Shown here one piece after another: positions 11,972 to 56,691 of a stretch of 64,000 bases of DNA. The stretch comes from Clostridiales bacterium. Lineage in GTDB: Bacteria; Bacillota; Sulfobacillia; RBS10-35. The first letter of the stretch is position 1, and each line of letters begins with the position of its first letter. The translations under genes and the position numbers were made by a program. Where the stretch lies: NCBI GenBank assembly GCA_018729555.1, contig JAHHQG010000023.1:62001-126000 (forward strand), read 5' to 3'. The notes under the pieces are model-generated. The model was not told the DNA's origin. It saw only the letters and a list, made by a program, of their open reading frames with translations, and made no database searches.

Positions 11972-12596
11972 CCAGAAAACACGCCACGGGTGGTCGCCGG
12001 ACGAGTAAACATTGCGCCTTAAGGTCCAGCAGGCTTTCCCTGGCATCACCGCTGCGTCGCCGCAACGGCGGTTTCCCTTTATGATGCCACCGGAACGTCG
12101 CCGTATCCGGGGCTGGATTGCCACTTAGTACGCACCGTAATCCTCGCCCGGACTCCCCAAAGAGGGGACAGCCTAGGAGATTTCCTCTCACGGTCGGAGC
12201 CGATCCCTAGCCCTTTTTGCAGACAGGGTTTCTCCGGCAGATGGTTTTCCCCCTGGGCCCCGAGGAAAAACCATGAACCCGGATTCCACCCGGTCCACTC
12301 AGGGCAGGCTACGCTGCACACAGGGTTCCACTGCATGCAGGTTCTTACCCCGCACCCTGGCGCTCTTGACCGCACCAAGGTGGCGGGCCTCCGCGGAGCT
12401 AGGGTGCCGCCTGCATGCCGTTGCAGGGTCCCCCAACTCCTTAACTCCCAGCACCGACCCCCGACTGGGCGTCGGCAGCCGGCACCAGGAACTTCATCGC
12501 TGTGCCCTTTGACGGATTTTTAGGCCCGTCTTCAGGATCGGGCGACCGACTAGGATACTGCGCCACCCGTGGACACATTTTTGGTTTGTCAAGCTC
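11944..12596 (-). ncRNA. ole: OLE-type large structured RNA between ispA and dxs
   Basis: A ~650-nt stretch with no convincing ORF, bounded by its own promoter and a strong terminator. Its two ends contain perfectly complementary 10-mers, CCACGGGTGG (12572-12563) and CCACCCGTGG (11993-11984), 570 nt apart, which would close one large structure. Inside are further stems, such as ATGGTTTTTCC pairing with GGGGAAAACCAT (12241-12274) and GGCATCA pairing with TGATGCC near 12030-12090. OLE RNA, about 610 nt, is known from extremophilic Bacillota and sits in the isoprenoid operon near ispA and dxs. Size, place and long-range pairing fit that class. I could not compare it with the Rfam OLE model, so the class name rests on context and architecture. 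Confidence 0.82.
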
Positions 12597-38943: not shown

Positions 38944-40266
38944 ATGAAGAAAAAGGAGAAAAGAAGGCTGACATGGTGGGCCGTCCTGGCGGCAGGGTGG
39001 ATTTTGGCCCTCGGCGGATCCTCACCGGCGAGGGCGCAAAGCTGGTACATCGACGTTCCCGGGAGCTACTGGGCCCGCCCCGAGATCTACGCCCTTTACA
39101 CGGCCAGCGTCACCGACGGCTGGTTTGTCCCCGCTCCGGGGCTTCCCGTGTCCTTTGGCCGCTGGTATTACAAGCCCGATGACCCCATGGCCCGGGGGGA
39201 GGTGGTGGTCCTTTTGCTGAAGGCCATGGGGATCCCTCCCGCCGACGGCCCGGTGCCCTTTTTAGATGTGTTCCCCGGCACCGAAGTCTACGGCCGGATT
39301 CCCCTGCGGCCTTATGTGGCCGCCGCCGTGGCCCACCAGCTCCTTTCCGGCGAGGAAGGCCTCTACTTCAACCCCCGGGACGGCCTCCAGCGGCAGGCGG
39401 CGGCCGCCTGGCTCATCCGGAGCCTGGGGCTCAAACCTTTCGCCCAGTCCCTGAGCCCCGTGGAGATCCAACAGCTCCTCCGCCGGTTCCGCGACGGATC
39501 GGAGGTGGCGCCCCGCTACCAGGCGGAAGTAGCCGCCGCCATCCGGTTGGGCATCCTCCGCGGCTACCCCGACGGCACCCTTCGCCCCCGCCAGACCCTC
39601 GCCCGGTCCGAAGCCACCGTCATGGTCTTTCGCTCCGCCTGGATCCAGCTGGAGGTGAGCCCCTCCCGCTGGGACCCCCAGCTGGGGCCGGCCCGCATCC
39701 TCCTGAAGTCCCTGGAAAACGGAAACGTGCGCCTCTGGAAGGCCTGGGTGGAAGATGAACGGGGGTCCATCCTCCGGTCCTTCACCTGGTACCCCCCCAG
39801 GCGCCCTCCTCTGGAAGCCCTCCTGGAAACCCTCCCGGGGCCGGGCCTCTACTGGATCAAAGGGAGCGTCACCTCGGCCGAGGCCCCCCCTCGGGAAGCC
39901 ATCCCCATCCCCCTCTGGGTGGAAGGCACCTGGCTTCAGGGGGAGCTCCTTCCCCCAAAGGTGCCCGCCGGCCAGGCGGTCCGCATCCTCGCCCGCTCCA
40001 GCTGGCAAGGGGAAGGGGTGACGGCCCTGACGCCCTGGGGCACCCTGGACCTCATCCCCGCCCCCTCCTCCGGGGACGGGAAATCCTGGTCCGCTACCTT
40101 CACCGTCCCTTCCACCCAGAGCCCCGGCAGCTACCCCATCCCCCTGGAAGGGCGGTTCATGGAAGGGCAGCGGCGGGCTCTACTCCTCCACCTGGAAGTC
40201 CTTCCTCCCGTGCCGGGGCACGAAGAGGATCTCCGGGTGGTCCTGGTGGGATCAGGGTCTCCCTAA
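38944..40266 (+). CDS. S-layer homology (SLH) domain secreted protein
   Basis: 440 residues. Signal peptide (about 1-31: MKKKEKRR, hydrophobic core, ARAQ), then three SLH-like repeats (about 33-100, 103-170 and 195-240; the third has AIRLGILRGYPDGTLRPRQTLARSEATVMVFR), followed by a beta-rich region to the C-terminus. SLH domains hold proteins to pyruvylated secondary cell-wall polymers, so this is likely exported and wall-bound. ATG with GGGAGG 6-7 nt upstream. It is an isolated plus-strand gene between the two Tad clusters and its 3' end overlaps spoIIP by 15 nt tail to tail. Confidence 0.85.
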   Translation: MKKKEKRRLTWWAVLAAGWILALGGSSPARAQSWYIDVPGSYWARPEIYALYTASVTDGWFVPAPGLPVSFGRWYYKPDDPMARGEVVVLLLKAMGIPPADGPVPFLDVFPGTEVYGRIPLRPYVAAAVAHQLLSGEEGLYFNPRDGLQRQAAAAWLIRSLGLKPFAQSLSPVEIQQLLRRFRDGSEVAPRYQAEVAAAIRLGILRGYPDGTLRPRQTLARSEATVMVFRSAWIQLEVSPSRWDPQLGPARILLKSLENGNVRLWKAWVEDERGSILRSFTWYPPRRPPLEALLETLPGPGLYWIKGSVTSAEAPPREAIPIPLWVEGTWLQGELLPPKVPAGQAVRILARSSWQGEGVTALTPWGTLDLIPAPSSGDGKSWSATFTVPSTQSPGSYPIPLEGRFMEGQRRALLLHLEVLPPVPGHEEDLRVVLVGSGSP

Positions 40267-41187
40267 GCCCTGAACCCACCGGGAAAGGCCTCGGGCAAAG
40301 AGGTCCATGCTCAAGATAGCCTCTTCCAAGGGCGTCCACTGGTTTCCCACCTCGAGGAGGAGGGCTCCGGGGCTGAGATCCTGGTTGTAGGTGCCCTCTG
40401 CCAGGAAAATCCCCTTAATAAGGCCGGGAAAGAGGCTTTCCATCACGGCCATGAGGGAGCGGGCGAAGGTGAGGTTATCGGGGTAGAAGGGGTTGCCCTT
40501 TCCCACCACCATCATGATCTGGCTGATGCTCCGGCCCCCGTAGGACGTGCGGTAGACCTCTGGGCCGGGTCCGGCATCGCGGTGGACATCCCAGAGGAAA
40601 AGGGGTCTCTCCTGAAGGTACTCAAGGACGGCCCGCCGGGAGCGGGCGTAGGATCCCTCATCATGGGGCCAGAAGTTGGTGAGGTCGTGGACCACATGGG
40701 TGAAACCCTGATCTAGGAGGGCCGCCTTGAAGGCCCCTCCTACCTCTAAGATGGCGCCCCCTTCCGGTTCCGAGTCGATACCTCGGGCGGGGATGTAAGA
40801 TTCATCGGTATGGCTGTGGTAGATGACCACCAGCCGCTTTTTCGGCGGCGTTCTGGGCACGAGGGCCGTCAGATCTTTGACGGAAAGGGCGGGAAGCTCC
40901 TCCGGCAAAAGACCCTCTGCCAAGGGGCCATAGATCTCCGTTGCCGGCCCCAGGACCTTCAGCCAGGCCCCCCTTCCCTCCCGCCCCACCACTTCCAGCG
41001 CCATTCCATCGGAGGATAGGAACCGGTCCCCTACGGCTGGAGGGATTTCCGTAAAGAGAAAGGGCTGGGAGCCCAGGTAGAGGGTATAGAAGGAACCTTC
41101 CGGGGCTCCCGGCCCTTGGGGCCGCCCCAGCAGAAGGAGCACCGACGCCAAGAGGGCCCCCAGGAGAAACCAGGCCCACCGTTTCAC
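40252..41187 (-). CDS. spoIIP: SpoIIP-like sporulation autolysin
   Basis: 311 residues: a membrane helix (WAWFLLGALLASVLLLLG), then the SpoIIP amidase/endopeptidase domain with VVIYHSHTDESYIP (catalytic His region), LFLWDVHRDAG and ALLLEVGNQWTPLEEA. In Bacillus SpoIIP with SpoIID and SpoIIM thins septal peptidoglycan and drives engulfment. GTG start at 41187. Its ribosome site is inside a strong hairpin. It lies 40 bp after rtcB. Confidence 0.93.
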   Translation of the reverse strand: MKRWAWFLLGALLASVLLLLGRPQGPGAPEGSFYTLYLGSQPFLFTEIPPAVGDRFLSSDGMALEVVGREGRGAWLKVLGPATEIYGPLAEGLLPEELPALSVKDLTALVPRTPPKKRLVVIYHSHTDESYIPARGIDSEPEGGAILEVGGAFKAALLDQGFTHVVHDLTNFWPHDEGSYARSRRAVLEYLQERPLFLWDVHRDAGPGPEVYRTSYGGRSISQIMMVVGKGNPFYPDNLTFARSLMAVMESLFPGLIKGIFLAEGTYNQDLSPGALLLEVGNQWTPLEEAILSMDLFARGLSRWVQGLGRP

Positions 41188-41193
41188 CGCGCG

Positions 41194-41218
41194 CTCCCCT
41201 TCAAGGGGAGTGTTCCCC
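41194..41218 (-). promoter_or_regulatory. Hairpin over the spoIIP ribosome binding site, with a competing upstream stem
   Basis: Minus strand: CTCCCCT-TGA-AGGGGAG, a perfect 7-bp stem whose 3' arm is the only ribosome-binding-like sequence, 6 nt before the GTG of spoIIP. The same TCCCC can instead pair with the GGGGA just upstream (5 bp, ACAC loop), which would free the ribosome site. Thus two mutually exclusive folds are possible. Confidence 0.5.
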
Positions 41219-41227
41219 GAAAGGCCG

Positions 41228-42403
41228 TCAATCTTTGTAGGGGTCGAAGACTTCCGGCCCCGCCATGACCACCACCAGGGGCCGCAGCCGCTCCACCACT
41301 TCCACCGTGCCCTTTTGTTCCTCCAGGACCTCTTCCAGCCGCCGGTAGACCTGGGGCGCCTCGTCCACGTCGCCGCCCCTCAAGATGATGCCCCGCGCCT
41401 TCAGCCAGCGCTTCATGGCCTCCCGGCTCACTCCCCCTCGCTTTGCCGCCCGCCGGCTCATGATCCGCCCGGCCCCGTGGATGGTGGAAAAGAGGATCTT
41501 CTCCTGCAGTCGGCGGGTCTCCTCATCGGGGTTTTCGGCGCCCTTGAGGATCACCGCCCCGTCCCCCATGCTCCCGCCCACAAAGGAGAGCTGGCCGGGG
41601 AAGGCGGGGGTGGCTCCCTTCCTGACCACGATGAGCTCCCGGCCGCCGTGGACTTCCTTCCAAGCGAAGTTGTGGTGGTTGTGGACCAGGGCTAGCTCCC
41701 TTCCTCCAAGGATGGCCAGGACCTTTCGCACCACCCACTCCCGCCCCGCATAGGCGTACTGACCCGCTAGCTCCATAAGGGCCCAATAGCGCTGACCCAG
41801 CTCGGAGCGAAGGGGCAAAAGAGCCTCCACTTCTTTGCCCTGGCTGCCCCAGGGCTTCCCCTGGGAAAGGGCCATAAACCCGGTGGCGATGGTGTGGCCC
41901 AGGCCCCGGGAACCGAAATGCACCCCGATCCAGATGCGCCCTTTGGTATCGGCAAAGAGATCCACGTAATGGTTGCCGCCCCCCACCGTCCCCAGCTGCT
42001 GCCGGGCTTTTTCCCGGAGGGGTTCCCGCTCTTTCTTCGGCAAAGCATCCCAAGCGGGAGACTGGAAGAGGGGATGGTCCACCGGGGCATCGGCGGCTTT
42101 GTTGGTCCGCCCCAGTCCAAAGGAAATGGTGCTGGCGATCTCGTCGGCGATCTCCTCCAGGCGGCCCTCAATATCTGCCAGGGTGAGGTCCGTCAGAAGG
42201 GCGGCGTTGCCGCAGGCGATGTCAAACCCTACCCCCGCCACCGACACCTTGTCTTCATAGGCGGCCACCCCGCCGATGGGCATGATGTACCCCAGGTGGC
42301 CGTCGGCCATGAGGGCCGCCATGACGGCCCTTTGGGCCACGTCTTTGAGCTGTGCGATGGTTTCCGGATCATGCTTTCCCAAAATGGCCGTGATGACACC
42401 CAT
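41228..42403 (-). CDS. rtcB: RtcB-family RNA ligase
   Basis: 391 residues: DGHLGYIMPIGGVAA, VGFDIACGNAALLT (metal-binding Asp and Cys), GGNHYVDLFAD, GVHFGSRGLGHTIA and HGAGRIMSRRAA with the His that takes GMP in the family. RtcB joins 2',3'-cyclic phosphate or 3'-phosphate RNA ends to 5'-OH ends in tRNA splicing or RNA repair. It is of the shorter bacterial type. No archease or RtcA gene is near; it lies between spoIIP and Tad cluster 2 on the same strand. Confidence 0.92.
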   Translation of the reverse strand: MGVITAILGKHDPETIAQLKDVAQRAVMAALMADGHLGYIMPIGGVAAYEDKVSVAGVGFDIACGNAALLTDLTLADIEGRLEEIADEIASTISFGLGRTNKAADAPVDHPLFQSPAWDALPKKEREPLREKARQQLGTVGGGNHYVDLFADTKGRIWIGVHFGSRGLGHTIATGFMALSQGKPWGSQGKEVEALLPLRSELGQRYWALMELAGQYAYAGREWVVRKVLAILGGRELALVHNHHNFAWKEVHGGRELIVVRKGATPAFPGQLSFVGGSMGDGAVILKGAENPDEETRRLQEKILFSTIHGAGRIMSRRAAKRGGVSREAMKRWLKARGIILRGGDVDEAPQVYRRLEEVLEEQKGTVEVVERLRPLVVVMAGPEVFDPYKD

Positions 42404-42453
42404 GGACCATCACCGCCGCCATTCTAGGAAGGAAACCCGGAGCCGTCCACTTT

Positions 42454-43365
42454 TCAGCGGAGGGTGGCGAAGATGGTGATGGCCGCCGGGCCCAAGAGGA
42501 CGATGAAGATGGTGGGAAAGATGAAGATGACCAGGGGAAAGAGAAGCTTGATGGGGGCTTTCAAGGATAGCTCCTGGGCCCGCTGCCGCCGCTGAAGGCG
42601 AAGGCCTTCCGACTGGCTTCGAAGGACCCTCGTTAAAGGCGTCCCCAGCTTTTCCGCCTGGATAAGGCTGGCCACAAAGTTTTTCACTTCGGGAAGGCCG
42701 CTTCGCTCCGCCAGCCCTTTGAGGGCCGCCTCCCGCTCCATCCCCAGCCTGATGCTCTTCAAATAGAGGGAGAATTCCTGGGCCACCGGCCCGCTGAACT
42801 TGGCTGCCACCTTCCCCATGGCTCCATCGAGACCCAGCCCGGCCTCCACCGACACCGAAAGGAGATCCAGCACATCGGGAAAGGCCTTGCGAAAGGCCCG
42901 CTGCCGCAGCTGGATCTTCTGGCGCAGGCGAAAGAGGGGGATCTGGGAGAGGACATAGCCCAGGGCCGCCGCGATAAGGAGGAGGGGTCCCGGGGAAAAA
43001 CCCAGGGCCGCCCCCAAGAGAAACCCCATGAGGAGCCCTGCCGCCCCCCAGGTCACCCGCTGGGCCATGTAGGAGCTGGACCCTTCCATCTCCCCTGCTT
43101 GCGCCAGGAGCCTCGCCACCCTTTCCCGGGCGGCCGCCGGGGTCCTGGCCCAGATGAAGGCTTGCCACTTTTGGAAGAGGGGCTTTAGGACCCGCTCGGA
43201 AAAGGGTTTGCTCAGCTCCTTGGCTTCGTAGGCATCGGCGGGGTTGTGAAAGCTCTGGAGGCGCCGCAGGCGCTTTCGCACCACTTCTTCCCGTTCCGCC
43301 GGCATGAGGAGGTAAAGGCTGAAGAGAGAGGAGCTCAAAAACACGAAAAAGAGCAAAAGGGCCAT
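42454..43365 (-). CDS. tadC: TadC-like platform protein, Tad cluster 2
   Basis: 303 residues, GspF-type domain (FPDVLDLLSVSVEAGLGLDGAM, LPEVKNFVASLIQAEKLGTPL) with membrane helices at the N-terminus, near 105-145 and at the C-terminus (LLFPLVIFIFPTIFIVLLGPA). Typical TadC size. Last gene of Tad cluster 2, 3 bp after tadB. Confidence 0.93.
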   Translation of the reverse strand: MALLLFFVFLSSSLFSLYLLMPAEREEVVRKRLRRLQSFHNPADAYEAKELSKPFSERVLKPLFQKWQAFIWARTPAAARERVARLLAQAGEMEGSSSYMAQRVTWGAAGLLMGFLLGAALGFSPGPLLLIAAALGYVLSQIPLFRLRQKIQLRQRAFRKAFPDVLDLLSVSVEAGLGLDGAMGKVAAKFSGPVAQEFSLYLKSIRLGMEREAALKGLAERSGLPEVKNFVASLIQAEKLGTPLTRVLRSQSEGLRLQRRQRAQELSLKAPIKLLFPLVIFIFPTIFIVLLGPAAITIFATLR

Positions 43366-55880: not shown

Positions 55881-56606
55881 CTAAGACGACCGGGGCCTTT
55901 TCTCCGCCGGCTTTCCCGCCCAAAGGGCCATCTTTTGGAGGGCCTTTTTCTCGATGCGGCTCACGTAGCTCCGGGAGATGCCCAAAAGGGCCGACACTTC
56001 CTGCTGGGTCCGGGGCTGATCGTCGTAGAGCCCGTACCTGAGGACCACCACCGCCCGCTCCCTGGATGGAAGGCGATTTACCAGCCGCTGCACCTCTTCC
56101 GCCTCCATGGCCCGCCCCACTTTCTCCGCGATCCCTTCGTCATCGGCCGCCAGCCGGTCCATGAGGGAGATCTCGTCCCCATCCCGGTCGGTGCCCAGGG
56201 GCTCCTGCAAAAAGATTTCTCCTCGGGTCTTCTTCTGGGCCCGAAGGTGCATGAGGATCTCGTTTTCGATGCAGCGGGCGGCATAGGTGGCCAGCCGCGT
56301 CCCCTTCTCCGGCTGGAAAGTCTCGATAGCCTTGATGAGCCCCACCGCCCCCATGCCGATGAGATCCTCCATGTCCTCCCCCGTGTTCTCAAATTTCTTC
56401 ACCACATGCACCACCAGGCGCATGTTGTGCTCGATGAGCTTTTTGCGGGCCTCGACGTCGCCCCTCGCCATGGCCTCTAGGTAGGCTTCTTCCTCTTCCG
56501 GCGAGAGGGGCGGAGGAAAGGAGGTCCGGCTCTGCAGGTACCCGGGGAGTCCCAGGAGCCCTCGCAAGAGGGCCAGGCCGAGAAGGGCCCAAAAGGAAAC
56601 GTCCAC
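55881..56606 (-). CDS. sigK: RNA polymerase sigma-K factor, intact
   Basis: 241 residues. Hydrophobic N-terminal pro-sequence (about 1-20, FWALLGLALLRGLLGLPGYL) as in pro-sigma-K, then LSPEEEEAYLEAMARGDVEARKKLIEHNMRLVVHVVKKFENTGED and region 2 LIKAIETFQPEKGTRLATYAARCIENEI, and a region 4 helix-turn-helix at the C-terminus (QQEVSALLGISRSYVSRIEKKAL). It drives late mother-cell genes. The gene is continuous, with no skin-like element. GTG start with GAGGAGGAC 5 nt upstream. Pro-sequence removal would depend on SpoIVFB, released by SpoIVB, whose gene is in this window. Confidence 0.96.
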   Translation of the reverse strand: MDVSFWALLGLALLRGLLGLPGYLQSRTSFPPPLSPEEEEAYLEAMARGDVEARKKLIEHNMRLVVHVVKKFENTGEDMEDLIGMGAVGLIKAIETFQPEKGTRLATYAARCIENEILMHLRAQKKTRGEIFLQEPLGTDRDGDEISLMDRLAADDEGIAEKVGRAMEAEEVQRLVNRLPSRERAVVVLRYGLYDDQPRTQQEVSALLGISRSYVSRIEKKALQKMALWAGKPAEKRPRSS

Positions 56607-56629
56607 GTCGCGTCCTCCTCAATAGAACC

Positions 56630-56658
56630 ACCCTATGAGGGAGGACGCCCGAAGGTTC
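56630..56658 (-). promoter_or_regulatory. Putative sigma-E-type promoter of sigK
   Basis: Minus strand GAACCTT (5 of 7 to the sigma-E -35 KMATATT), 14-bp spacer, CATAGGGT (5 of 8 to CATACANT). The extended -10 TCATAGGGTG is identical to that before spoIIIAA. sigK is sigma-E-dependent in Bacillus. Confidence 0.55.
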
Positions 56659-56691
56659 CGCCCTTCCGGCCCCGCTTCCATGTCCTTGCGT

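Follow-up and report, generated by a model that had tools for sequence, protein, structure and literature searches.

A hairpin that likely occludes the Shine-Dalgarno sequence of a spoIIP gene behind rtcB, with pairing kept in a related species

In RNA thermometers as a class the Shine-Dalgarno (SD) sequence lies within a stem, as it does in the leader of the spoIIP gene described here. The individual genes closest to this arrangement are Bacillus subtilis sigG and bacteriophage T4 gene e. In sigG, whose promoter has been mapped, a 5-bp hairpin on the ribosome-binding site (RBS) cuts translation 2-4-fold, as established by mutation in the sigG work consulted, which also proposes a larger hairpin that would block read-through mRNA and cannot form on mRNA made from the sigG promoter (PMC5942855). 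The spoIIP leader resembles this system in belonging to a sporulation gene with a GTG start, in having its SD in a leader hairpin and in a read-through hairpin, here a putative one, behind an upstream gene; unlike sigG, with its mutational test and mapped promoter, spoIIP sits behind rtcB and its hairpin is a predicted control element (PMC5942855 for sigG). In the account of T4 gene e used here, long transcripts hide the SD and late promoters give an mRNA that lacks the structure's 5' segment (PMC3014915). Like SpoIIP, the gene e lysozyme cuts peptidoglycan, and on long transcripts a helix conceals the SD of either gene, whereas gene e differs from the present locus in having late promoters inside the structure, which yield open mRNA, an effect of about 100-fold according to that account (PMC3014915). 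By analogy, these two precedents would count in favor of an RBS-occluding reading of the spoIIP leader. In Clostridium difficile spoIIP lies after gpr and is reported as 800-fold lower in a sigF mutant and 10-fold lower in a sigE mutant (PMC3789822); in the genome analyzed here gpr is on a different contig from the spoIIP gene in question. A narrow literature search recovered no published report of control of spoIIP by an SD hairpin.

The DNA that was analyzed (hereafter the window) is a stretch of 64,000 nucleotides from a genome assembly that is 96% complete with 7% contamination. The gene, which we term spoIIP-1, is encoded on the minus strand at positions 40252-41187 and specifies a 311-residue peptidoglycan hydrolase with a GTG start. 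Its assignment to the SpoIIP family in the preliminary description is confirmed by matches to Pfam PF07454 (8e-47) and NCBIfam TIGR02867 (137.7 bits, over the cut-off of 123.15), and it is one of three spoIIP-family genes in the genome. Upstream on the same strand lies an rtcB-like gene (41228-42403; Pfam PF01139, 9.4e-70; under the NCBIfam equivalog cut-offs), whose TGA stop at 41230-41228 is followed by a gap of 40 nt and then by the spoIIP GTG at 41187. A sigma-70 promoter at this junction was considered and rejected; the one consensus match in 40200-42600 lies elsewhere than the junction.

The gap contains, on the minus strand at 41210-41194, the perfect GC-rich hairpin of 7 bp that had been pointed out earlier, with the SD as one of its arms: CUCCCCU (41210-41204) and AGGGGAG (41200-41194) form seven Watson-Crick pairs around a UGA loop (CTCCCCTTGAAGGGGAG). 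The SD itself, GGGGAG (41199-41194), is contained in the 3' arm, 6 nt from the GTG, and is the sole SD-like run that we noticed at a workable distance from this start. In isolation the stem has a free energy of -10.6 kcal/mol at 37 C, and in computed folds the SD is paired within the leader stem, as an RBS-occluding hairpin of the sigG type requires. We consider it likely that the hairpin occludes the spoIIP SD, because such stems are rare on sampled SDs and because the stem is kept with a compensated pair in one relative. The background for the first of these points was a sample of 444 kb, comprising the window and 19 further stretches, in which 394 genes, their starts included, were called by a crude script. 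Among these 394 genes only two, one of them spoIIP-1, have 4 nt or more of the SD inside a perfect stem of at least 7 bp; the corresponding counts are 21 for stems of at least 5 bp, 7 for at least 6 bp and none for at least 8 bp.

For the second point a single comparison species was available, Bu84 (G001), the sole other species of the family examined. It shares the rtcB-spoIIP junction, with CTTCCCTTGAAGGGAAG ahead of an ATG start. Across the 17 bases of the hairpin the two species differ at two positions, and these differences compensate each other, a C-G pair of the window being replaced by U-A; the Bu84 stem retains an energy of -8.2 kcal/mol. Of the covariation in relatives that had been suggested as a check, one compensated pair in one relative was observed. 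The overall identity between the window and G001 is 74% over 6,350 window positions, and the identity of 25/29 in the 29-base core is not unusual, being equally high in 1431 of 6321 windows. In neutral simulations that used the locally observed substitution rates, a perfect stem survived in 2.3% of runs and did so with a compensated pair in 0.6%; conditional on the SD arm as observed, the opposite arm matched in 1.7%. As a kept and compensated stem occurs in so few neutral runs, the comparison of these two species favors selection on the pairing at the spoIIP junction. We also scanned 49 spoIIP-family loci (L033, contained in G001:C188, was omitted as being on the same contig as L004), with starts that were picked by script and are uncertain for many loci. 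A stem of at least 6 bp on the SD was found only in the window and G001, which are also the only two of the 49 with rtcB within the fetched stretch; the 47 loci that lack the stem, two paralogs from the window genome among them, have no such junction with rtcB. Separately, three Sporomusa loci (L034 1789, L035 1788 and L039 1629) have the palindromes TTCCCAGTGGGAA / TTCCCACTGGGAA immediately upstream of the spoIIP SD, and palindromes of this type are present in imperfect form in L036 and L038. Besides the rtcB-like gene at the junction, G001 has an incomplete rtcB-like frame at the end of a contig (L058/L059, G001:C112:12490-12804), which comprises residues 104-154 followed by 318-353 inside a 144-codon frame.

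The explanation that we prefer, and to which we would give about an even chance, is that selection maintains the hairpin as an RBS-occluding element, which holds spoIIP translation low as a constant damper and not as a two-state switch. An mRNA spanning the whole rtcB-spoIIP junction would carry the SD inside a GC-rich stem, and therefore ribosomes would reach the SD only upon breathing of the stem. Assuming co-transcription of spoIIP with rtcB, the element would act chiefly as a barrier to SpoIIP production from rtcB read-through mRNA. The size of this effect and its probable benefit, in that little peptidoglycan hydrolase would be made outside sporulation, are inferences, whereas we observe directly the stem, its SD arm and the pairing kept in one relative. 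If the explanation is right, SD-occluding hairpins extend from sigG to the gene of an engulfment hydrolase, and it suggests a simple way in which spore genes in foreign operons might avoid leaky expression. At present this is a modest, testable case based on two species.

A different account would have the stem be a functionless product of chance, arising where, in a genome rich in GC, a G-rich SD happens to lie next to a C-rich segment, and several measures are in keeping with it. Perfect stems of at least 7 bp are frequent as such, numbering 434 in the 444 kb, and the conserved example comes from two species only. The cost of opening the spoIIP SD, modelled at 60 C, is ordinary, since 71 of the 394 sampled genes have a higher one (46 of 394 for the Bu84 gene). 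The 111-nt leader shows no extra stability over shuffled sequences, its z being -0.53 and its fold being equalled or bettered by 50 of 200 shuffles. Against these stands the compensated pair in the relative, with its rarity in the neutral runs, and we regard chance as a fairly unlikely explanation.

A more elaborate possibility is that the junction houses a forespore promoter with its RNA start inside the hairpin loop. On this view, which follows the T4 gene e model, read-through mRNA is silenced, whereas promoter-made mRNA would lack the 5' arm and be translated. A candidate forespore-type -10-like motif, GGGAACACT (GGGCAGACT in Bu84), is located on the minus strand at 41217-41209. It ends 21 nt ahead of the start in the window and 19 nt in Bu84, so the RNA start would fall in the loop; the corresponding distance for gpr is likewise 21. 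In Bu84 shortening the mRNA in this way lowers the modelled SD-opening cost from 5.6 to 1.6 kcal/mol. However, in the window the model shows no such gain (3.6 kcal/mol for the full and 3.5 kcal/mol for the shortened mRNA). Moreover, the putative -10 has no matching -35, the expected site being occupied by CAAAG / CAAGA inside the end of rtcB, and a -10-like motif at such a distance occurs in 11 (loose pattern) or 3 (strict pattern) of the 394 genes. A clear parallel comes from sigG, which in both genomes has such a design with a full promoter. Its leader keeps TGAATA-N18-CATACT despite a diverged spacer (L096 550-615; the G001 ortholog is in L095), and in both genomes the -10 lies within the 5' arm of a hairpin that covers the SD, similar to the B. 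subtilis read-through hairpin. For a transcript starting past the -10, the modelled opening cost in the two genomes is 0.4 instead of 9.1 and 0.8 instead of 12.2 kcal/mol. This sigG passes NCBIfam NF006071 and is 10 bits below the TIGR02850 cut-off. The leader of spoIIP-2 holds its SD in a strong long stem (L002 1015-1080; L097 1150-1215), and CATAA-N15-CATA, lying either between the arms or within them, is common to both species; opening is harder in only 2 of the 394 sampled genes, or 27 for the G001 counterpart. The pattern GMATA-N15-GRNNANNCT, derived from sigG and gpr, has 18 sites in the two genomes (L123-L140), 3 of which are the source genes themselves, as against 3 in the reversed control. 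Several forespore-promoter-like sites are 14-26 nt ahead of a candidate start, which implies very short leaders, and mostly have no C-rich arm. For spoIIP-1 we consider a promoter of this kind rather improbable on the present evidence. We are similarly doubtful of its generalization, according to which several spore genes of the lineage (sigG clearly; spoIIP-1, spoIIP-2 and gpr possibly) would share a recurring insulator module in which a C-rich 5' arm hides the SD and the promoter -10 region adjoins this arm or lies in it, only read-through mRNA being silenced and promoter-made mRNA being translated. If such a module did exist, risky spore genes could be placed downstream of genes unrelated to them, rtcB being an example.

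The remaining alternatives fare considerably worse. The pairing test is blind to the difference between an RNA stem and a DNA dyad, as the compensated change preserves the DNA palindrome as well as the RNA stem, and the palindrome could in principle be an operator for a regulator of spoIIP. A family of such operators is nevertheless not apparent in the genome, where sites with at most 2 mismatches number 6 as against 11 for the reversed control. Core sites number 8 versus 4 for the reversed control in G000 and 3 versus 3 in G001, and 9 of the 11 are elsewhere, mostly within long open frames (two, L088 and L089, being uncertain). These counts are compatible with an operator at this single site, which nevertheless appears very improbable. 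The same holds, if anything more strongly, for the two-state or temperature switch proposed in the preliminary description, in which the C-rich arm was to pair instead with an upstream GGGGA and thereby free the SD, possibly in a temperature-dependent manner. The alternative helix itself is real as a potential structure: on the minus strand GGGGA (41218-41214) and UCCCC (41209-41205) are able to form 5 bp around ACAC, with a spacing of 3-4 nt in place of the 5 nt first described and -7.2 kcal/mol in isolation at 37 C. In the window model it competes with the main stem, its probability falling from 0.96 at 37 C through 0.54 at 60 C to about 0.33 at 70 C. Where it forms, however, the SD is not freed and pairs with the start of the spoIIP coding region, six of its seven bases being unpaired with a probability of at most 0.05 at 37 C and one being bulged out (0.97). 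Nor is the helix kept in Bu84, where it amounts to -2.9 kcal/mol versus -8.2 for the main stem and has a probability of at most 0.03 at 37, 60 and 70 C. Unlike RNA thermometers, the spoIIP leader has a small modelled temperature response, with only a slight rise in SD accessibility between 37 and 70 C, and no Rfam thermometer family scores over its cut-off in the window. A conserved alternative pairing that frees the SD was thus found neither in the two species nor in the model, and we do not support the switch reading. The only Rfam family passing in the window is OLE RNA (RF01071, 476.9 bits), present at full length elsewhere, at 11974-12582 on the minus strand. Finally, a role as terminator or processing stem of the rtcB mRNA, which the position of a GC-rich stem 17 nt past the rtcB stop might suggest, is the least probable of all, as no T run follows the stem on either strand, the terminator scan lists nothing there and both species use the 3' arm as their SD.

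We also surveyed SD-opening costs in other spore genes. A strong case in the window is sigK (55881-56606, minus strand; NCBIfam TIGR02846 over the cut-off), whose leader (56607-56660) contains the SD hairpin CGTCCTCC..GGAGGACG; only 4 of the 394 sampled genes are harder to open, or 16 for the G001 ortholog. The spoIID SD is in a strong stem in G001 (5 of 394 harder) and not in the window genome (199), where sigE, sigH, spoIIR, spoIID and the gene labelled sigF all have an ordinary opening cost (170 to 355 of the 394 higher). The identities of sigE and sigH, like that of sigG, are confirmed by NCBIfam, whereas the gene labelled sigF has no NCBIfam match at E <= 1e-40 and owes its label to our own reading. 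An overall tendency of spore genes towards a costly opening of the SD was not adopted, being weak in a comparison of 10 genes of the window genome, spoIIP-1 excluded, with the 394 background genes (one-sided Mann-Whitney p = 0.030; 0.076 without sigK); the genes were gathered as the analysis proceeded, the background sample also contains sigK and spoIIP-1, and the row for spoIIP-3 of G001 was left out because of a wrong start. Genes that rank high in opening cost (20 annotated with Pfam, eight of them also with NCBIfam) include sigK, a CwlD-like amidase that is below the CwlD cut-off and a D-Ala-D-Ala carboxypeptidase, together with motA, a transposase and housekeeping genes.
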